In this document: one piece after another, positions 14,380-23,588 of the stretch
How the letters are laid out: each line of letters opens with the position of its first letter
Position numbering within the stretch: the stretch's first letter is position 1
Source: Alphaproteobacteria bacterium
GTDB lineage: Bacteria; Pseudomonadota; Alphaproteobacteria; Micropepsales; Micropepsaceae
Assembly: GCA_025350465.1 (NCBI GenBank)
Contig: JANXXU010000024.1
Location: forward strand, 186,001 to 250,000
Length of the DNA stretch: 64,000 nucleotides
Direction: 5' to 3'
Made by a program: the position numbers and the translations under genes
The notes under the pieces: generated by a model
Database searches by the model: none
Told to the model about the DNA's origin: nothing
Seen by the model: the letters and a program-made list of their open reading frames with translations, nothing else

Positions 14380-14877
14380 TCATACTGGGGTTTTGGCCAG
14401 GAGGCCGGCAGCGGTCAGGTTGGCATAGGTGGATGATGAAATTCCAATATCGCGCTCGCACGCTGCTTGCCAGCTGCGCGCCAGGATTGAGCGAAAGCCA
14501 TCAAGACGGTCGTCGATGGTGACGGTATATCCCCCGCTCCCCAGCTTCAAATCCATCCAGCCCGCCCCTTTTTCGCGGCGCAAGGTGTAGTAGCGCAATG
14601 CGAACTGGTCGAGCGCTTTCCAACTGATAAGGCGATTGCCGAAGAATCCGGTAACGGCGAGCCCTTCGGGCAACAGCGTCAGTACCGTGCGTGCACGCAA
14701 AGCAGTTTGCGCAAGATAAAGACCGAAGAGGACGGCGAGAGCGAGAAGGGCAAAAAATGCGATGGAGCCAGGCGGGACGAGGAGGAAAAAGAGAAAGCTC
14801 AAGGCGAAGCCGATGCCGCTGCGCAAATAGTCGCCTGCAAGCGCGCTGAGCGGCCACCGATAGATCGCCTCGCTCAT
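14380..14877 (-). CDS. Small two-helix membrane protein with a PH-like C-terminal region, function unknown
   Basis: 165 residues from ATG 14877, which overlaps the stop of the deacetylase gene (ATGA). Residues 21-57 form two adjacent transmembrane helices with a tight PPG turn. The remaining 100 residues look cytoplasmic, with a beta-rich run (VLTLLPEGLAVTG, NRLISWKALDQFAL, GWMDLKLGSGGYTVTID) and a final amphipathic helix (SILARSWQAACERDIG), reminiscent of bacterial PH-like membrane proteins; that assignment is inference. It is placed between the deacetylase and the ABC importer genes, so it may couple surface-glycan enzymes to the membrane. Confidence 0.75.
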   Translation of the reverse strand: MSEAIYRWPLSALAGDYLRSGIGFALSFLFFLLVPPGSIAFFALLALAVLFGLYLAQTALRARTVLTLLPEGLAVTGFFGNRLISWKALDQFALRYYTLRREKGAGWMDLKLGSGGYTVTIDDRLDGFRSILARSWQAACERDIGISSSTYANLTAAGLLAKTPV

Positions 14878-15653
14878 CGTGCTTTTAACTCGAAGGCATC
14901 GGATGCCTTGACGAAGCGGACCGCGGGGTGGGTGACGAGCGTCGACAGGAGGCCGGCGAGCAAGCGCTCTTTGCTTGCGTTCCAATACGTGTGGTGCGTG
15001 AGAAGCCCCAACGGCTCTTCCATTCGCGCCGGTTTCGCTCGGCGCCAGCGCAATTTGCGCAACAAGAGCCCGGCGATCGCCGGCTCGGATTTCAGCATGC
15101 GGCCATGGCGCCAATCGATGAGGTCGAGATGGGCGTTGATTTGAAGGAGACCGGGCACCGGGAATTTCGCGATGCGCGGCTTCCAGGTCGAGAGACCACG
15201 AAAGCCGAGCTTAGGCAAATGAGGCACGGCGCGCGCGGTGATGCGGTTCCACGGCGGTACGAGGATAGGCAGGCAATTTGCGCCGAAGCGTGCGCGGGCG
15301 AGCCGTAGACCCGTCGCTGCGTCGAGCAGAACCGAATCAAGCGACATGTCGCCGCCAAGCTCGCGCTTCGTCCGGTCGGCCCCCGCGTGATTTTCGTGGC
15401 GCAGACCATGAACGAGTACTTCCGCGACCTTCGATTTGGCAACGAGACTGGCGAGACGCGTCGTCGCCTTTGCCGGGATCGCCGACAACGCGATGGGCGT
15501 CGCGAAATTCTCGGCAAGGGCCAGCATCGCCTTCAATTTTGCGTTCCCGTCGGTCGCATCGTCGTCGCGCCACCAGAAAAACGCAGTGCGATTCTTCGCG
15601 CTCCAACGGTCAAGCTCGCTGCGAATTTCGGCCCATGGATCGCGCGCCAGCAC
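14874..15653 (-). CDS. Polysaccharide-deacetylase-like protein
   Basis: 259 residues from GTG 15653, chosen because GGAG stands six bases upstream and earlier codons fall inside the glycosyltransferase gene. It shows the carbohydrate esterase 4-like (NodB-type) metal site pattern: FWWRDDDATD (residues 24-33) supplies the catalytic/metal aspartates, VHGLRHENH supplies the H-x-x-x-H ligands, and ILVPPWNR forms the substrate groove. No signal peptide is seen, so it probably acts in the cytoplasm or on a membrane-bound intermediate, unusual for chitin-type deacetylases. Context suggests removal of an acetyl group from a glycan made by the neighbouring glycosyltransferases. Confidence 0.8.
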   Translation of the reverse strand: MLARDPWAEIRSELDRWSAKNRTAFFWWRDDDATDGNAKLKAMLALAENFATPIALSAIPAKATTRLASLVAKSKVAEVLVHGLRHENHAGADRTKRELGGDMSLDSVLLDAATGLRLARARFGANCLPILVPPWNRITARAVPHLPKLGFRGLSTWKPRIAKFPVPGLLQINAHLDLIDWRHGRMLKSEPAIAGLLLRKLRWRRAKPARMEEPLGLLTHHTYWNASKERLLAGLLSTLVTHPAVRFVKASDAFELKAR

Positions 15654-15655
15654 CG

Positions 15656-16780
15656 TCAGCTCCGGCGCAATAATTTGTTCAGAGCGGCGACAGATCCGGC
15701 GGCGCCGTCGAGGTTCAGCTGGGCTGGCGGAACCGTTGCGTCGGCGAGATCGTCGATCGCGGCGGCAAGCGGGTGTGGATCGAGCGCGTTTTGAGCCATC
15801 ACTTTGATCCAACCGCGCGCGGCGAATCTTTCGGCGCGCATGGCTTGTTCCTTCTCGCGATCGGTCTCGAACGGCACGGCGATCGTCGGGGTACCCGCGG
15901 CAACCGCTTCCACAAGCGTATTGTAGCCAGCCTGCGAGACCGAGACAGCGGCACGTGCCAAACGGGCCCGGAAATCCGGCAGAGTACGGACAACCGTCAC
16001 ATTACCGGCGGCTGTGCGTTGTGCGAGGCCATCGGTCAATGGTCCAGTGACGAAGGTCCAAGGGCAATCCTTGAGGCGCGACAACGCGCGTGCTTGGAGA
16101 GCCGTTTCGATCAGCGCCCCGCCCGCTGCCCCGCCGCCCGCCGAAATCAAGATCTCCGTTCGGCCTGTGGCGGCGCGTTGCGGTCTTGCGCAGATATAGC
16201 CGGTGTAGAGCGTTCGCTCGGCGAGCGAAATCGTCTCGGCGAAACTCTCCTCAAGCCGGACGACGGCCGGATCGCCGTGCACGAGCAGAGCGTCATAGTT
16301 TGCGTGCGCATAAGCAACCATCGCCGCGGCGCGGTCGGGCTTGCGCGGGCGCTGCAAGATGTCGCGAAGCGAGGCGACGATGAGCGGCGGTTGGGCGCGA
16401 GTGTGGGCCGCCTCGATCAACGCGTGCAATTCGAAATTCAAGAGGCGGCGGCCGAAGGGAAATGTTTCGGTGATCACGACGTCCGGACGCGCTTTGTGGA
16501 ATGCGGCAAGCAGTGCGTCGCGTCGCGCTTCATGCCAATGTTGATCGACGAGCGTGCCGTTCTCGTCGACCAGTTCATCGAAGAGTTCGTCCTTGGCGCG
16601 CGCGGGCGGCAATTGTACTAAGGCGTGATCGCGGGGCACGGCATCGCTCGGCGTCATGCCGCCGCTGACCAATGTAACGACAAAGCCGGCATCGCTGAGT
16701 GCAGCCGCCAACGCGCGCGCGCGGGCGAAGTGGCCGAGGCCCAATAGGTGCTGCACCCAAATGAAGACGCGCGCGCTCAT
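15656..16780 (-). CDS. MurG-like (GT28-type) glycosyltransferase, copy 2
   Basis: 374 residues with a GT-B fold. The N-terminal domain opens FIWVQHLLGLGHFARARALAAAL, where the G-x-G-H loop is typical of MurG and related transferases. The C-terminal domain carries ILISAGGGAAGGALIE, then AAVSVSQAGYNTLVEAVAAGTPTIAVPF, the nucleotide-sugar binding motif, with E-x5-Q-x3-A nearby. It resembles the copy at 19107-20270 in plan, so the cluster has a duplicated pair. Substrate unknown. ATGA overlap with the preceding GT4 gene and a 2-nt gap to the deacetylase support co-translation. Confidence 0.85.
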   Translation of the reverse strand: MSARVFIWVQHLLGLGHFARARALAAALSDAGFVVTLVSGGMTPSDAVPRDHALVQLPPARAKDELFDELVDENGTLVDQHWHEARRDALLAAFHKARPDVVITETFPFGRRLLNFELHALIEAAHTRAQPPLIVASLRDILQRPRKPDRAAAMVAYAHANYDALLVHGDPAVVRLEESFAETISLAERTLYTGYICARPQRAATGRTEILISAGGGAAGGALIETALQARALSRLKDCPWTFVTGPLTDGLAQRTAAGNVTVVRTLPDFRARLARAAVSVSQAGYNTLVEAVAAGTPTIAVPFETDREKEQAMRAERFAARGWIKVMAQNALDPHPLAAAIDDLADATVPPAQLNLDGAAGSVAALNKLLRRS

Positions 16781-17871
16781 GCGGGTCTTAGTTCCGACAG
16801 GATAACGCGAAGGCTTTCCGCTGCGGTCGCGACGTCGCGCTCTTGCGTCGCGAAGCGCTGCGCTTGCCGTCCCATCGCAAGGCGCAGCGCGTCGTCTTCG
16901 ATCAGCGCTTGAAGATTGCGCGCATAGGCGCCGGCGTCATTCGGCGCGCAAAGCAAAGCCGTTTCGCCGGAGACGACGACATCCGGCACGCCGCGATCAT
17001 TGCACGCGACAACGGGCAGGCCCGCGGCTTGCGCTTCCAGGTAGACGAGCCCGTAGGCTTCGCCCAAACCGGGCCAAGCGAAGATATCGTTTTCGGCCAT
17101 CAGCGCCGGTAGCTCGGCGTGAGCGACGGCGCCGAGGAAGCGCAGCTGATGGTGAGGTGCGGCCTTGAAGGCGTGCTCGATCTCGGCGCGATGAACGCCG
17201 TCGCCCGCGATCGTCAATGCAGCCGGCGCCGGAATCTTGCCGAGCGCTTGCGCAAGCAGGCGATAGCTCGCGAGTTTGCGGTCGTTGCGCATCATGGCAA
17301 CGGCAAGCAGCTGCGGCCGCTTGCCCAGGTGGTTTCGCCCGGCCTGAGCGAACGGAGTCGAGTCGATGAAAGGCTTCAAGTCGCGCACGCGATCTTTCGC
17401 GATCCACTCCAAACAGACGCGATCGAAGGACGTCATCGCCAGTAAGCGATCCGCGGCTGCAAGCGCTTTCGCGGCGCCTTGGTGACTCAGCGCCCACGGA
17501 CCGTTGGCGCGCTTGGGGGCGTGCGAACCTTCGGCGATAACGTAAGGAATATTCAACGTGCGTGCGATGCGCGGCCCGATCCAATCGGGCGATTTGTAAT
17601 AAACGTGATAGCTAAACCAGAGATCGGGGCGGGGCTCACGGCCGAGTGCGATCGCTTCCAGATAGTTCGTGGCAGCGTTTTCACATTCGGAGAAGAGATG
17701 CGCTTGTCGCGCCGCATCGCCTTTGCCGTCGAAGCTGCGGGGCAGTCGCGTGACATCGACAGCGTGCCCTGCCCGCTCCAAGGCCTGCACGATGAGCGCG
17801 CCGACACGCGAGATGCCGGAGGCCTTGTCGGCTTTTGGCTGGGTAATAGCCGAATAGAATGCGATGCGCAT
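16777..17871 (-). CDS. Family 4 glycosyltransferase, copy 1
   Basis: 364 residues, GT-B fold. The N-terminal acceptor domain begins MRIAFYSAITQPKADKASGISRVGALIVQALERAGH. The donor-binding C-terminal domain shows LAVAMMRNDRKLASYRLL, LTIAGDGVHRAEIE, and the E-x7-E signature region GEAYGLVYLEAQAAGLPVVACNDRG, ending DVATAAESLRVIL. Likely a retaining transferase using a nucleotide sugar for surface glycan synthesis. It starts 3 nt after the stop of the other GT4 gene and ends overlapping the MurG-like gene. Confidence 0.87.
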   Translation of the reverse strand: MRIAFYSAITQPKADKASGISRVGALIVQALERAGHAVDVTRLPRSFDGKGDAARQAHLFSECENAATNYLEAIALGREPRPDLWFSYHVYYKSPDWIGPRIARTLNIPYVIAEGSHAPKRANGPWALSHQGAAKALAAADRLLAMTSFDRVCLEWIAKDRVRDLKPFIDSTPFAQAGRNHLGKRPQLLAVAMMRNDRKLASYRLLAQALGKIPAPAALTIAGDGVHRAEIEHAFKAAPHHQLRFLGAVAHAELPALMAENDIFAWPGLGEAYGLVYLEAQAAGLPVVACNDRGVPDVVVSGETALLCAPNDAGAYARNLQALIEDDALRLAMGRQAQRFATQERDVATAAESLRVILSELRPA

Positions 17872-17874
17872 GGT

Positions 17875-19119
17875 TCAACCGGCGCGTTCGCGCAAGAGTT
17901 CGGCAATACGATCGTAGCCGCTTTCAGCATCGAAGCGATCGCGGACTTGCGCAAAACCGGCGGCGCCAAGCTTTGCGCGCTGCTCGGGGCTCGCGATCAA
18001 TTCGGCGAGCGCTGCCGCCAACCCTTTTGTGTCACCGGCCGGAACGAGGCGCCCGGTCACGTGATCTTCGACCGCCTCGCCCACGCCGCCCGCGGCGCAG
18101 GCAAGGACCGGAATGGCGCGTCCCTGCGCTTCGAGAATCGCATTGGGGATTCCGTCGCGATCGCCGTCGCTGGCGATGTTGGCAGGCAGAACGAAGAGGT
18201 CGCTCGCATCGAGCGCAGCCACAACTTGCGCATAGGGTTGCGCCGCGTGCCACGTGATCTTACCGGCGACGCCGGAGCGAAGCGCCAACGCCCTCAACTC
18301 ATCGAGCAGCGGGCCGCCGCCAATGTGGTGCAACTCGACGGCAAGGCTCGCCGGCAGCATAGCGACAGCGGCGATCAACGTGCGCAGGCCCTTCTTCTCG
18401 ACGGCGCGGGCGACGCACGTTAAACGCACCGGCGCCTGCGCATCGCTGCCGTCGCGCGATTGGGCATGCGATTGGCTGCTCAAACTCTCACGCGGCAGGC
18501 CGTGGTGGATGAGGTGAATCTTGTTTGGATCGCCGAGGTCGGCGAGACGTGCCGCGCCGGTTCGATTGCAGACGGCGACAAATGCCGCATCGGAAATTTT
18601 CTCGGCGAGGTCCCAATTGGGCGTTGTCCAAATGTCCTTTGCGTGCGCCGAAACGCTGTAGCTCACGGCGCGCATCTTCGCGGCATAGCGCACGACCGAG
18701 GTCGGACTGTGCGCGAAATGCGCGTGTATGTGGCGGACGCTTTGAGGCAGTTCCAGCGCGAGGGCGCAGGCTTGGCCCAAGCGGCGTAGGCGCGCGCGCC
18801 CGATGTCGCGCGGCCAGTCGCGACGGAATGCGTTCCAGGCGGCACCAAATCCGGGCAAGCGTCGCGCTGCGGCGAAAGCGCGGGCCACGCGTAGCGGCTC
18901 GTCATGCAGATATTCGGGCAAATATCTCGGCTGCGCTCGCACCGGATTGTGGACGAGCTTGGCGTCCGGGCCAGGATGACGCAAGGCGTGCAAAGTGAAA
19001 TCGAAACCGCGCGCTTCGAGTGCCGCCAGCTCGCGTGCGACGAATGTTTCGGAGAGGCGCGGAAAACCCTTGACGACAATCGCGAGACCGGGGCCCGGCA
19101 CCGAACTCAATTGAGCCAC
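17875..19119 (-). CDS. Family 4 glycosyltransferase, copy 2 (exopolysaccharide type)
   Basis: 414 residues. N-terminal LAIVVKGFPRLSETFVARELAALEARG is the start motif of exopolysaccharide GT4 enzymes such as those that search for S-E-T-F. IHAHFAHSPTSVVRYAA and SVSAHAKDIW are typical of this subgroup. The C-terminal donor site has DGIPNAILEAQGRAIPVLACAAGGVGEAVEDHVTGRLV. The GTG at 19119 is used; it overlaps the preceding MurG-like gene by 13 nt and no strong ribosome binding site is seen, so a start a few codons later is possible. The role in a surface polysaccharide is inferred. Confidence 0.87.
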   Translation of the reverse strand: MAQLSSVPGPGLAIVVKGFPRLSETFVARELAALEARGFDFTLHALRHPGPDAKLVHNPVRAQPRYLPEYLHDEPLRVARAFAAARRLPGFGAAWNAFRRDWPRDIGRARLRRLGQACALALELPQSVRHIHAHFAHSPTSVVRYAAKMRAVSYSVSAHAKDIWTTPNWDLAEKISDAAFVAVCNRTGAARLADLGDPNKIHLIHHGLPRESLSSQSHAQSRDGSDAQAPVRLTCVARAVEKKGLRTLIAAVAMLPASLAVELHHIGGGPLLDELRALALRSGVAGKITWHAAQPYAQVVAALDASDLFVLPANIASDGDRDGIPNAILEAQGRAIPVLACAAGGVGEAVEDHVTGRLVPAGDTKGLAAALAELIASPEQRAKLGAAGFAQVRDRFDAESGYDRIAELLRERAG

Positions 19120-20270
19120 GGTTTCGACCAGGCGACGATGTTCTCCAGACCGTCGAGCATGCCCGGTATGGGATGCGCAGACGGCGGCGCCTGCGACGGC
19201 AAAGCGCGCAACGCACTTGCCATCACCGCCGGGTCACCGCGCGTGTGCTCGTCCGGCTCAGGTAGCATGCGCGACAGCCCCAAACGCTGCGCCGCCTCGG
19301 CGCGGATCGTTTGTTCGAAGCGCGGCGTGCGGCGGGGAACGATCAGGCCGCGCTTGTCGAACGATAGAATCTCGCAAAATGTGTTGTAGCCGCCCATCGA
19401 GGCGACTGCGCAGCAATCCGCCATCAAATGCTCCATTCGAGGCTCGAATACTTCGCAAGGCAGCGACAGTGCGGCAGCGCGTGCTTCGAACGCGGCGCGC
19501 GCTTCGACACGCATAAACGGGCCCAACACGATCAGCGCCGGCGGCAGGGACGGCGCGTGCACTTCATAGGTATCGAGAAGCCAACCGATCAACGCCTCCC
19601 CGTCCCCACCGCCGCCGGGAGTGATGAGAATGCGCTCGTTCAAATCGGGAACGATCGGCACCGCTGGCGCGCTTGGCCGCGTGCGCCTCAAATAACCGGT
19701 GTAGCGCGTCTTGGCGCGCACGCGGGGCGACAGCTCGATTCCTTGCAGAGGATCGTAGATTTCCTTCAAGCCGTAAATCCAAATGTCGTCGTAAATCTCC
19801 TCCAGCGCGGGGGCGACGCGCTTTCGCGCCCATTCCTTGGCGAGCGCGTCGGGCTCGTCCATGACGTCGCGCAAACCCAAGATGAGTCGAGCACCGCGTG
19901 CCTTGAGTCGCTCCAACGTTCCTTCGAGCTCGCCGCGCAAGCCCAGCGGCTCCTTGTCGACGATGACGAAATCGGGCGCGAAATGAAGCGCCGCGTCGTC
20001 GATCAGCGACGAGCGTAACGTCGTCATCTCTTGGATCGAACCGTGCTGGTCGAGCGGCACGTAATCGCCGTTTCGCAGTTTGATGATCGAAGGCACGCGG
20101 ACGAAATCGACGCGAGTCTTGAAATCGAAGCTGCCGATAATGGGCGAACCCGAAACGATTAAGACTTTAAGCTTCGGGTACGCTTCGGCGAGCGCATGCG
20201 CGATCGTTCGGCAACGGCGGATGTGGCCGAGGCCGAAACTGTCGTGGCTATAAATGAGTACGCGCGCCAT
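19107..20270 (-). CDS. MurG-like (GT28-type) glycosyltransferase, copy 1
   Basis: 387 residues. Starts MARVLIYSHDSFGLGHIRRCRTIAHALAEAYP, with the G-x-G-H loop of MurG-like GT-B enzymes. Further motifs are FVIVDKEPLGLRGELEGTLERLK, ILITPGGGGDGEALIG, and CCAVASMGGYNTFCEILSFDKRGLIVPR, the donor-binding GGYNT motif. It is the first gene of the ten-gene - strand run and divergent from the ABC-exporter-like gene, with 136 nt between the starts. No family member with a proven substrate comes to mind; it could act on a lipid-linked or soluble sugar. Confidence 0.86.
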   Translation of the reverse strand: MARVLIYSHDSFGLGHIRRCRTIAHALAEAYPKLKVLIVSGSPIIGSFDFKTRVDFVRVPSIIKLRNGDYVPLDQHGSIQEMTTLRSSLIDDAALHFAPDFVIVDKEPLGLRGELEGTLERLKARGARLILGLRDVMDEPDALAKEWARKRVAPALEEIYDDIWIYGLKEIYDPLQGIELSPRVRAKTRYTGYLRRTRPSAPAVPIVPDLNERILITPGGGGDGEALIGWLLDTYEVHAPSLPPALIVLGPFMRVEARAAFEARAAALSLPCEVFEPRMEHLMADCCAVASMGGYNTFCEILSFDKRGLIVPRRTPRFEQTIRAEAAQRLGLSRMLPEPDEHTRGDPAVMASALRALPSQAPPSAHPIPGMLDGLENIVAWSKPWLN

Positions 20271-20406
20271 GCCTCAGGCGATTGGTTAAAGCGTTGGACC
20301 CGCTTTGATCGCACGCGCCATTGCCGGGTGGAAGGGGCGTGGCCTTTGCTCGCCTTTCTGTCTAGTTTGGCGGCCGGATTTCGGCGGCCACACGAATCGG
20401 CAGGGC

Positions 20407-23097
20407 ATGGCGGGCGAGTCGACCCTTTATCGCTACATTTGGCAGCACTCCCGGCGCGAGCAGCTCGTGGTGCTCATCGTCGCGGTCGCGGCCCAGCCGG
20501 TCTATTTCCTTTCGCTGACCCTGCCCAAGCTCATCGTCAACGGCGCCATCTCGGACGAGAAGTATTGGGCCGCGCACACGACGCGAAACTTCCTGCATTT
20601 CGTCATCGGTATCCCGGAGAGCTTGCAAGGCTGGCTCGGCACGCAATGGGTGCTCCTCAGCGGCTTTGAGCTCGAGCGCGTGCCGTATCTGGTCGCGCTC
20701 AGCGTCGCCTTCCTGGTGCTGGTCGGAGCGACGGGCTTTCTCAAGTTCTTGATGAATACGATGAAGGGGCGCATGGGCGAACGTCTGCTTCGCCGGTTGC
20801 GTTACGAACTCGTCGATAAGGTCTTGCGCTTTCCCTCGGCGCATCTGCGGCGCACGAAACAGTCCGAGATCGCCTCGATGATCAAGGACGAGGTCGAGCC
20901 GCTGGGCGGGTTCATCGGCGACGCGATCGTGTGGCCGGTGTTCCTTGCCGGCCAGGCCCTGACCGCGCTCATCTTCATTATCGTGCAAAATGCCTGGCTC
21001 GGCCTGATCACGGCCACGGTGGTGTCGGCGCAGGCCTTGATCATCCCGCGCTTGCGACGCCCGATCTTGAAGCTCGGCAAATTGCGGCAAGTGCAGGCGC
21101 GCGAACTCGCAGGGCGCGTCGGCGAGATCGTCGACGGCGGCGCCGATATTCGCGTGCACGGCACCTCGAATTGGGAGCGAGCGGAAATCGTACGCCGGCT
21201 TGGCAAGATCTACGACATCCGCTTCGACATCTATCAGCGCAAATATTTCGTCAAATCGCTCAACAATTTCATCGCGCAGATGACGCCGTTCGTTTTCTAT
21301 TTGGTCGGCGGTTATCTTGCGATCAAAGGGCAGCTCGACGTCGGTCAGCTGCTGGCCGTCATCGTCGCCTACAAGGATCTGCCCGGCCCGATCAAAGAGC
21401 TCATCGACTGGGACCTGGCGCGCCAAGACGTGCAGATCAAATACGACCAGGTGATGGATCAGTTCCATCCCGACAACATGGTGCCGGCCGAACTGCAGGC
21501 GCCGCTCGCAGACGCACCGCTGCTATCGGGTCAGATCGAGCTGAAGGGCGTCACCGCGGTCGACGACGCCGGCTTCACGCTGCTCGACAACGTCGATCTC
21601 AGTTTGAACCTCAATCAATCCGTGGCCGCGACGGGAGGGGCCGGCTGCGGCAAGGAAGCACTTGGACTACTCTTCGCACGTCAAGTGACGCTCAAATCCG
21701 GCGCGGTGCGGTTGGGCGGTGTCGAACTGACGACGGCAAGCGACGGCTTCCTCGGCCGGCGCATCGCTTATGCAGGACCGGACGGCTATTTTTTCCCGCT
21801 GAACCTGAAGGACAATTTGCTCTATGGGCTGAAGTATCAGCCGGGTCCGCTGCCCGAGAGTTGCGATCGGGTGGCGAGCGCGCGTTTTGCGGCCGAGGCG
21901 CGCCGGGCAGGCAATCCCGATTTTGCGCTCGACGCCGATTGGCTCGACTACGAGGCGCTGCGTGCACATACGCCGACGGAGATCACCGATCGCATTGCCG
22001 AGGTATTGAGCGTCGTCGGACTCGAGAGCGACGTTTATCAATTCGGCCTACAGGCGCGGCTAGATCCGAAGGCGAACGCATCCGCGGCGCAACGCATCGT
22101 CGAAGCGCGCCATGCGCTGCGCGAGCGTCTGGCCGCGGAAAACATGTCGACGCTCGTCGAACCGTTCGATCCGGGGAGCTATAATCGTAATGCATCGATT
22201 GCCGAAAACCTGCTCTTCGGCACAAGCATCGATCCGGAATTGCAGCCGAGTGCGCTGCCGCATTTGCCGCATTTCCGGCGTGTCGTCGCCGAAGAAGGTC
22301 TTGAGGGCGATCTCGTCGCCATGGGGCTTTCGATCGCCGACACAATGATCGAACTCTTCCGCGATTTCCCGCCGGACCATCCGTTCTTCGACGAGTTCAG
22401 CTTTATTCCGGCGGCCGAGTTGCCCGCCTACCAGGCGATCGTGAAGCGTGTGAAGGCGGGTGGCGCCACCTACGCCGACCGCTCGCAGCTCTCGGTGTTG
22501 CCGCTGCGCTATGTCGAAGCGCGTCATCGCCTGGGTTTGATCACGCCGCAGATTCGCGAACGTCTGCTCGTGGCCCGGCGCACGTTCGCCGAGACGCTGC
22601 CCGCCGAGTTGAAAGCGCGCATCGAATTCTACGAGACCGATCGCTACAACGCCGCCGCCAGCCTGCAGGACAACATTCTGCTCGGGCGCGTTGCGTACGG
22701 CATGGCCGAAGCGGCAACCCGCGTCGGCGTCGTGATGCGCCAGGTGCTCGATCAGCTCGACGTACGCGACGTGATCATCGACGCGGGCCTTGCCTACAAC
22801 GTCGGTGCCGCCGGCAAACGGCTGACGCCCGCGCAACGCCAGAAGCTGGGCCTGGCGCGCGCGCTCATCAAGAATACCGATTTCCTGGTGCTGAACAGCA
22901 CCGTCTCGACGCTCGACGATCAGCAGAAGATCGAGATCGTCGATCGCGTGCTTGCCTATCGCCAAGGCAAGGGCACGGTTTGGGTCTTGAGCAAGGACGA
23001 TTTGGCGCTGCGCTTCGATCGTGTCCTTGTGTTCGATCACGGACGGCTGGTCACCGACAAAGAGCAGGTGACAATGGCGAGAGCGGCGGCGCAATGA
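20407..23097 (+). CDS. ABC-exporter-like membrane protein with an apparently inactive, expanded nucleotide-binding domain
   Basis: 896 residues from ATG 20407, where the sequence opens STLYRYIWQHSRREQLVVL like related proteins. Residues 15-375 form a six-helix type IV exporter domain. The C-terminal domain is an ABC ATPase in outline, but each catalytic motif is altered: Walker A is GGAGCGKEA (410-418, E417 for Ser/Thr), the Q-loop Gln is lost (AYAGPDG), the signature is LTPAQRQK (806), Walker B is FLVLNST (N830 for Asp, S831 for the catalytic Glu), and the switch His is Lys in VLSKDD. Walker A and signature are about 400 residues apart instead of about 100; the insert repeats an N-L/I-L-x-G motif (N470, N601, N756). 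The frame is intact, so it is not a pseudogene. Its stop overlaps an ATG of the cNMP-binding gene. Confidence 0.85.
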   Translation: MAGESTLYRYIWQHSRREQLVVLIVAVAAQPVYFLSLTLPKLIVNGAISDEKYWAAHTTRNFLHFVIGIPESLQGWLGTQWVLLSGFELERVPYLVALSVAFLVLVGATGFLKFLMNTMKGRMGERLLRRLRYELVDKVLRFPSAHLRRTKQSEIASMIKDEVEPLGGFIGDAIVWPVFLAGQALTALIFIIVQNAWLGLITATVVSAQALIIPRLRRPILKLGKLRQVQARELAGRVGEIVDGGADIRVHGTSNWERAEIVRRLGKIYDIRFDIYQRKYFVKSLNNFIAQMTPFVFYLVGGYLAIKGQLDVGQLLAVIVAYKDLPGPIKELIDWDLARQDVQIKYDQVMDQFHPDNMVPAELQAPLADAPLLSGQIELKGVTAVDDAGFTLLDNVDLSLNLNQSVAATGGAGCGKEALGLLFARQVTLKSGAVRLGGVELTTASDGFLGRRIAYAGPDGYFFPLNLKDNLLYGLKYQPGPLPESCDRVASARFAAEARRAGNPDFALDADWLDYEALRAHTPTEITDRIAEVLSVVGLESDVYQFGLQARLDPKANASAAQRIVEARHALRERLAAENMSTLVEPFDPGSYNRNASIAENLLFGTSIDPELQPSALPHLPHFRRVVAEEGLEGDLVAMGLSIADTMIELFRDFPPDHPFFDEFSFIPAAELPAYQAIVKRVKAGGATYADRSQLSVLPLRYVEARHRLGLITPQIRERLLVARRTFAETLPAELKARIEFYETDRYNAAASLQDNILLGRVAYGMAEAATRVGVVMRQVLDQLDVRDVIIDAGLAYNVGAAGKRLTPAQRQKLGLARALIKNTDFLVLNSTVSTLDDQQKIEIVDRVLAYRQGKGTVWVLSKDDLALRFDRVLVFDHGRLVTDKEQVTMARAAAQ

Positions 23098-23120
23098 GTG
23101 GTGTCAGTGAAGGGCCAGCG

Positions 23121-23588
23121 ATGAGCATCCAGACGGAAGTCGAGCGTTTGCGCCGCGTTCCGTTGTTCGCCGCCATCGATACCTCGCGGCTGAAGCTGCT
23201 CGCCTTCACCAGCGAGCGGTTGGCGTTCGAAAAAGGCGCGGTGCTATTCCGCCAGGGCGACCGCGGCGATTCCGCCTACCTCATTCTCGACGGCAGCGTC
23301 GATGTGGTGGTCGATTCCGACAAAGGGCCTGTGACGGTGGCGCATCTTGGACAAAATGCTTTCGTCGGCGAGATTTCGCTCCTCTGCGATACGCCGCGCA
23401 CGGCAGCCGTCGTCGCGACCGCACCGCTCGATACGCTCAAGATCAAGAAGGAGCTGTTCTTCCAGCTGCTGCGCGACATGCCGCAAATGACGCTCGAGAT
23501 CATGCGCGAGTTGGCGGAACGCCTGAACAACACGAATAAGGAGCTCTCGGTGGCGCACGCAAAATTGCGCAGCGCCGGCCTCGAATGA
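23121..23588 (+). CDS. Cyclic-nucleotide-binding-domain protein
   Basis: 155 residues from ATG 23121, preceded by GAAGGG; an ATG at 23094 in the same frame overlaps the upstream stop and would add nine residues. It is a single cNMP-binding domain: VPLFAAIDTSRLKLLAFTSERL, FRQGDRGDSAYLILDGSVDVVV, and a complete phosphate-binding cassette FVGEISLLCDTPRTAAVVA. The C-terminal helices (MRELAERLNNTNKELSVAHAKL) look like a coiled-coil and there is no helix-turn-helix, so it is not a CRP-type transcription factor. Coupling to the ABC-like gene suggests it senses a cyclic nucleotide, or acts as an adaptor, for that membrane protein. Confidence 0.88.
   Translation: MSIQTEVERLRRVPLFAAIDTSRLKLLAFTSERLAFEKGAVLFRQGDRGDSAYLILDGSVDVVVDSDKGPVTVAHLGQNAFVGEISLLCDTPRTAAVVATAPLDTLKIKKELFFQLLRDMPQMTLEIMRELAERLNNTNKELSVAHAKLRSAGLE

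Follow-up and report, generated by a model that had tools for sequence, protein, structure and literature searches.

We analysed a stretch of 64,000 nucleotides (hereafter, the window) from an Alphaproteobacteria bacterium of the family Micropepsaceae (GenBank assembly GCA_025350465.1, contig JANXXU010000024.1, positions 186,001 to 250,000 of the forward strand), with an emphasis on one gene (20407..23097, + strand) and its immediate downstream neighbor. The gene encodes a pseudo-ABC exporter protein of 896 amino acids, here denoted P0001, which combines the predicted fold of ATP-binding cassette (ABC) exporters, textbook ATP motors, with degenerate nucleotide-site motifs. Its frame is uninterrupted over 896 codons, from the ATG at 20407 to the TGA that ends at 23097, and is also open 5' of this ATG, where a TTG lies at 20305; because most close relatives begin matching at residues 1-4 of P0001, we consider the ATG at 20407 a sound start. 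The neighbor (23094..23588, +), the start of which overlaps the stop codon of P0001 (ATGA), encodes a stand-alone cyclic-nucleotide-binding domain (CNBD) protein of 164 amino acids.

The first 360 residues of P0001 (20407..21486, +) comprise a transmembrane domain of the exporter type, with a match to the Pfam ABC_membrane model at residues 93-320 (63.6 bits, against a cut-off of 28). The nucleotide-binding domain (NBD) matches Pfam ABC_tran in a weak and split fashion (36.4 bits, best stretch 393-489), and the top NCBIfam model for the protein, TIGR02203 (MsbA), scores 139 bits, far under its cut-off of 602. An AlphaFold2 model of P0001, built with 61 sequences from an alignment that took in 60 of the 72 listed references, has a predicted local distance difference test score (pLDDT) of 88.6 and a predicted template modelling score (pTM) of 0.83. 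In structural alignments of this model, exporters matched at full length, SUR entries were among the top matches, and the ComA NBD (Protein Data Bank (PDB) 3vx4) aligned over 233 of its 239 residues to model residues 371-896, with a root mean square deviation (rmsd) of 2.4 and a Z score of 28.4. As predicted, then, the NBD fold is complete. Between the first two long helices, at residues 50-90, the model contains four short predicted strands, perhaps an extra-cytoplasmic mini-domain.

A preliminary description of this DNA had held that P0001 lost every ATPase catalytic residue. Motif residues read from the sequence and from HMMER alignments to exporters in the PDB bear this out for six motif positions. 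The degenerate Walker A motif GGAGCGKE (residues 410-417; 21634..21657, +) has Glu417 in place of Ser/Thr, the Q-loop Gln is replaced by Pro458, the LSGGQ signature reads LTPAQRQ (806-812; 22822..22842, +), and in the degenerate Walker B motif FLVLNS (826-831; 22882..22899, +) Asn830 and Ser831 take the places of the Asp and the catalytic Glu, respectively. The switch His is absent as well; the residue aligned with it is Ser862, rather than the adjacent Lys that had been named. The general statement is nevertheless too strong: P0001 retains Lys416 and both glycines of Walker A, as well as Asp837 of the D-loop.

The same degeneration extends across the family. We collected 202 loci by similarity to the window and removed the window itself (L001), paralogue matches (L002-L010), five partial or split loci and 13 duplicates, leaving 174 relatives that were aligned together with P0001. 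Among these 175 members, Glu or Asp occupies the position of residue 417 in 140 and Ser or Thr in 13, Lys is present at 416 in 89, Gln at 458 in 43 and Glu at 831 in 59; at 830, Asn is found in 120 and Asp in 28; and SGG in the signature occurs in none. We then scored seven canonical features per member, counting the switch His leniently, anywhere in 861-866: 53 members keep none, 41 one, 34 two, 40 three, four members four and three members five, with no member at six or seven. Thus, no homologue with intact Walker motifs and the remaining canonical features turned up among the 174 aligned relatives, and the suggestion that the module is non-hydrolytic gains support from the sequences of the family as a whole. 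The three members nearest to the canonical state, with five features of seven (L163, L165 and L201), all possess the insert described below and a fused or adjacent CNBD; they could be intermediates, perhaps with ATP still in use. A quick tree, for which two canonical exporters served as the root, covers 107 of the 175 rows and leaves 30 of its 106 inner branches open; in it, L163 and L201 fall in separate parts and the members with four features in further places, a scattered placement that fits repeated motif loss.

The CNBD partner, which the preliminary description had not covered, adds weight to its suggestion of a regulatory role. In the 164-residue protein, Pfam cNMP_binding (73.1 bits) is the sole match above its cut-off, and no DNA-binding domain is among the Pfam matches; its relatives in the PDB include cGMP-dependent kinases, regulatory subunits of PKA and the SthK channel. 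By tblastn, a CNBD is encoded directly downstream on the same strand at 140 of the 174 loci and is fused in frame at 18; one locus (L098) is ambiguous, and none was found at 15, among which Pfam adds four fusions (L158, L162, L175 and L188), for 22 C-terminal fusions in total. The CNBD of L154 was accepted by eye. In the window protein, the phosphate-binding cassette retains both its Glu (Glu93) and its Arg (Arg102). The Arg is found in 139 of the 140 adjacent CNBDs and in all 18 of those fused by tblastn, and the Glu in 132 of 140 and in 11 of 18, with Asp in the other seven fused domains. Judging from these residues, the ligand pocket is conserved in the CNBDs linked or fused to the P0001 family. 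The family also co-occurs with class III cyclases, which are encoded in 147 of the 148 genomes with the family vs 104 of the 239 without it in the same set of 387, in raw counts that were compared by hand and are uncorrected for genome size and phylogeny; many genomes of the class hold several such cyclases. In the sole genome that has the family and lacks a cyclase (G186), the family copy (L176) is also without a detected CNBD neighbor.

A further shared feature is an insert within the NBD, at residues 479-738 (21841..22620, +), with pLDDT mostly above 85 in the full model. Originally put at 300 residues, it is real and conserved but comprises approximately 260 residues; between Glu417 and the signature start we counted 389 residues, where about 400 had been claimed from Walker A to the signature. 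The segment N-[LI]-L-x-G had been noticed to recur at Asn470, Asn601 and Asn756, and Asn601, Asn756 and Gly760 proved to be invariant in all 175 members. Each of the three N-x-L-x-G sites is preceded by a strand and a loop in the model and lies within a copy of the helical (ABC-alpha) segment: copy 1 at residues 448-582 (21748..22152, +), copy 2 at 578-737 (22138..22617, +) and copy 3, which includes the signature region, at 733-838 (22603..22920, +). Profile comparison detected a tandem repeat of 505-660 vs 690-838 with a score of 108 and a probability of 99.0, the best of 40 column shuffles scoring 19. The three segments are pairwise related at 92.4, 93.6 and 98.4%, against at most 4.4% for the best shuffle (30 each); the first two values are the weaker matches of copy 1 to copies 2 and 3, for which the best of 30 shuffles each reached 3.3%. 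A control with 48 random segments of P0001 was spoilt, many of them overlapping the repeats and the best values (95.4, 83.6 and 80.9%) coming from such segments, and we therefore relied on the shuffles. By that standard the recurrence of the motif exceeds chance.

The predicted structure of the insert agrees with the profiles, in line with the initial reading of repeated fragments of the ABC domain. Residues 478-763 folded alone with a mean pLDDT of 89.4, and in comparison with chains that had been pre-selected by Foldseek, ABC proteins occupy structural ranks 1-19, with residues ~590-729 placed on the helical subdomain that extends from the Q-loop to the signature. The best match is to NBD1 of MRP1, at a modest Z of 5.3 (rmsd 2.4 over 71 residues). 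Foldseek with the insert alone found no match in the PDB at E <= 0.001, the best being E 1.2. An unrelated inserted domain finds no support in the structure prediction, given that ABC helical subdomains fill these 19 ranks, albeit with Z of at most 5.3. Taken together, the profiles and the predicted structure, the latter as support and not proof, indicate that the insert contains additional ABC helical subdomains. The model further hints at a descent of the end helices in copies 1 and 2 from the signature helix, which the sequence tests do not show: in profile comparisons of the end helices, copies 1 and 3 match with a probability of 31.6 (shuffled best 23.3, with 0 of 30 shuffles reaching the score), and for copies 2 and 3 the score was reached by 3 of 30 shuffles.

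P0001 is a gene under purifying selection, from a family that has been maintained in well over 100 bacterial species. Against its nearest relative (82% identity), the ratio of nonsynonymous to synonymous substitution rates (dN/dS) is 0.126 overall, with 0.11 in the membrane domain, 0.21 in the front part of the NBD, 0.08 in the insert and 0.20 in the rear part of the NBD; the remaining relatives of the same genus give overall values of 0.13 to 0.21, with synonymous differences that are high in all comparisons. In nine of the nine comparisons within the genus, the membrane domain, the best conserved part of P0001, exceeds the NBD core in conservation. Two canonical exporters from this genome show the opposite order: in all 15 comparisons the NBD is ahead of the membrane domain, in one of these by a single point. 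Such a reversal of constraint is expected if the NBD of P0001 no longer catalyses.

With each species represented by one genome, a scan yielded 454 stretches with relatives at E <= 1e-3; the best 80 of these 454, which were kept, are 45-82% identical to P0001 and nearly all align end to end. Of the genomes searched, 18 of 96 from the order and 148 of 387 from the class, the source genome included, encode a relative; by most record titles, this class is Alphaproteobacteria. In a sample of the phylum, relatives were found in 37 of 397 genomes, all 37 from the same class as the window. In the class of a metagenome-assembled genome recorded as 'Betaproteobacteria' (G827), two of 184 genomes match, G827 itself and one more. 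Among 72,556 plasmid records, 263 match P0001, mostly from Rhizobium and Sinorhizobium, and 262 of them cover at least 80% of the query. All loci were found by similarity to the window, so that far relatives are under-sampled. Although motif loss by itself would speak for a decaying pseudogene or an assembly artefact, the open frame, the dN/dS of 0.126, the end-to-end alignment of these 80 relatives, the spread over genomes of the class and the plasmid records rule out decay and reduce the chance of either to next to nothing.

Considering these observations jointly, we give roughly even odds to the interpretation that P0001, built on the chassis of an ABC exporter, acts with its partner as a transporter, a channel or a flippase that hydrolyses no ATP and is controlled by a cyclic nucleotide; here, we infer the loss of hydrolysis, the complex, the ligand, the gating and the cargo. 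P0001 and the 164-residue CNBD protein would constitute a two-part membrane system in which the NBD would no longer be an ATP-hydrolysing motor and would instead have a structural role and a role in signalling, its size increased by added copies of its helical subdomain. In ABC exporters, this subdomain adjoins the coupling helices. The CNBD protein, present as a C-terminal fusion in some relatives, would bind a ligand such as cAMP or cGMP and would dock on the enlarged NBD, shifting the membrane domain between states, so that a second messenger, instead of ATP hydrolysis, would gate a passive conduit, a flippase or a receptor. The frequent linkage to glycosyltransferase genes, described below, suggests a surface glycan or glycolipid as the cargo or the regulated process.

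Several observations weigh against this interpretation. The equivalent of Lys416 is retained in 89 of the 175 members and L163, L165 and L201 reach five features, such that ATP binding or turnover may persist in some members of the family, and the pairing of a Walker A acid with a Walker B Asn could mark a nucleotide site that is remodelled, not dead. A far relative (L020) shows a dN/dS of 0.38 overall and 0.53 in the insert. No CNBD was detected at 10 of the 174 loci (L079, L105, L137, L159, with 342 bases downstream only, L168-L171, L176 and L195), many loci are without glycosyltransferases within the flank covered, and the association with cyclases consists of uncontrolled counts. Four of these loci, L168-L171, comprise a divergent lineage in which the membrane domain matches poorly and the signature region is disrupted, yet the motifs at N601 and N756 are retained.

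The remodelled site would keep P0001 driven or gated by ATP, with the acid at 417 replacing the Walker B Asp in magnesium binding and the CNBD doing no more than tuning the activity. The raw pairing of positions 417 and 830 is striking and non-random: in 137 strict rows, an acid goes with Asn in 115 and Ser/Thr with Asp in 11, compared with nine rows of acid and Asp and two of Ser/Thr and Asn. On the tree, these counts reduce to just 6 independent pairs, for which 200 random pairings average 3.2 concordant and 0.0 opposite changes, with a non-significant median p of 0.25. An acid swap at the magnesium site is accordingly no more than suggestive from these counts, and, although the three near-canonical members also point towards ATP use, P0001 itself lacks the Q-loop Gln, the signature and the His as well, and its NBD core is less conserved than its membrane domain; we therefore regard continued ATP dependence as rather unlikely. 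If the protein formed no conduit and were instead anchored in the membrane as a second-messenger receptor or a scaffold, with the neighboring glycosyltransferases under its regulation, the links to both the CNBD and the glycosyltransferases would be accounted for, and the enlarged helical module, as predicted, would offer a docking surface. The strongest constraint, however, is on the membrane domain, which is more than a mere anchor should presumably need, and the many loci without glycosyltransferase neighbors in the flank covered argue in the same direction, making this explanation unlikely in our estimation. Finally, P0001 could be the degenerate half of a heterodimeric exporter, with a working ATP site supplied by a canonical half encoded elsewhere. 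Each composite ATP site requires the signature of the opposite NBD, and with that signature lost in all 175 members, the site of a canonical partner would be left without it. Heterodimeric exporters in which one site is degenerate are a well-known group (PMC7756269), and the genome does encode canonical half-exporters, but none was noticed nearby, where only the window's own neighbors were searched and 20 cluster representatives were read by eye. A heterodimer thus appears quite improbable.

Several known systems resemble the proposed cyclic-nucleotide-controlled, non-hydrolysing system in part. Like the type I ABC exporters MsbA, ComA/PCAT1 and TM287/288, P0001 has an exporter membrane domain and a complete NBD fold; unlike them, it lacks the GxxGxGK[ST] form of Walker A, LSGGQ, the Walker B Asp, the catalytic Glu, the Q-loop Gln and the switch His, its hydrolysis motifs being replaced except for the Walker A Lys and the D-loop Asp, and it carries a 260-residue insert and has a CNBD partner. 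The degenerate Walker B and switch region are reminiscent of TmrAB, TM287/288 and TAP, each with one degenerate site, but the NBD of P0001 that shows these changes has lost its signature as well, and among the neighbors searched no half-transporter that could be its partner was noticed. With CFTR (ABCC7) and SUR it shares an ABC-exporter chassis, degenerate nucleotide sites and, by our interpretation, a role other than that of a pump. P0001 has no R domain, unlike CFTR, on which cAMP acts via a kinase and not via a bound CNBD. SUR retains one hydrolysing site. According to PMC7756269, CFTR does so too, unlike what we propose for P0001, and in one of its sites the Walker B Glu is replaced by Ser, as it is in P0001. 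SthK-type cyclic-nucleotide-gated channels likewise join a membrane part to a CNBD of the same family (SthK vs the window CNBD, E 4e-12), but the membrane part of P0001 is of the ABC_membrane exporter type and has no potassium-channel pore. P0001 is an ABC exporter by fold that fails the catalytic features; its proposed mode of action is closer to those of CFTR, SUR or a cyclic-nucleotide-gated channel, although it is a member of none of these.

What is new here is the adjacent or fused CNBD with a conserved pocket and, within the genus, a membrane domain that surpasses the NBD core in conservation. More tentatively, it is possible that the entire family consists of ABC exporters in which hydrolysis has been exchanged for direct gating by cAMP or cGMP, an independent bacterial counterpart of CFTR with an NBD enlarged by helical copies. 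If so, the family would show that control of an exporter chassis can pass to a second messenger. It would also provide a candidate target, other than a transcription factor, for cyclic nucleotides in these bacteria, and a natural experiment in which a membrane domain is driven by movements of the NBD without hydrolysis. We found no description of the family among freely licensed PMC papers, and the passages that mention SMb2081x in three papers (PMC10945364, PMC11387232 and PMC6180224) contain nothing informative on it; SMb20813 is a guessed gene number for the Sinorhizobium meliloti homologue. PADLOC matched mad3 to the rear part of the P0001 NBD at E 0.0009 and TIR or Pycsar models to the CNBD, which we read as generic similarity to ABC and CNBD sequences.

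Upstream of P0001, on the opposite strand, the window contains a run of glycosyltransferase genes together with a putative polysaccharide deacetylase, named by eye (14874-20270, -), conserved together in many relatives. Nearest to P0001 is a divergently transcribed glycosyltransferase of the MJ1255/VC2487 type (19107..20270, -; NCBIfam TIGR00661, 35.6 bits, below the cut-off), followed by two GT4 glycosyltransferases (17875..19119, -, 86.3 bits; 16777..17871, -, 88.4 bits; both Pfam) and a MurG-like glycosyltransferase (15656..16780, -; Pfam Glyco_tran_28_C, 46.6 bits). Counterparts are found in 108, 72, 36 and 53 of the 174 loci, respectively, counts in which both GT4 queries can match one and the same gene and many loci have only ~1.5 kb of flank. 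The cluster is divergent in most loci that have it; in Rhizobium, it is upstream on the same strand. On pSymB of S. meliloti (L206, 1-15270), a GT4 gene, a polysaccharide lyase gene and a cyclase-domain gene lie within 12 kb upstream of the P0001 homologue. The S. meliloti record labels the homologue 'ABC transporter ATP-binding protein' and the stand-alone CNBD gene there 'Crp/Fnr family transcriptional regulator'; both annotations are probably misleading.

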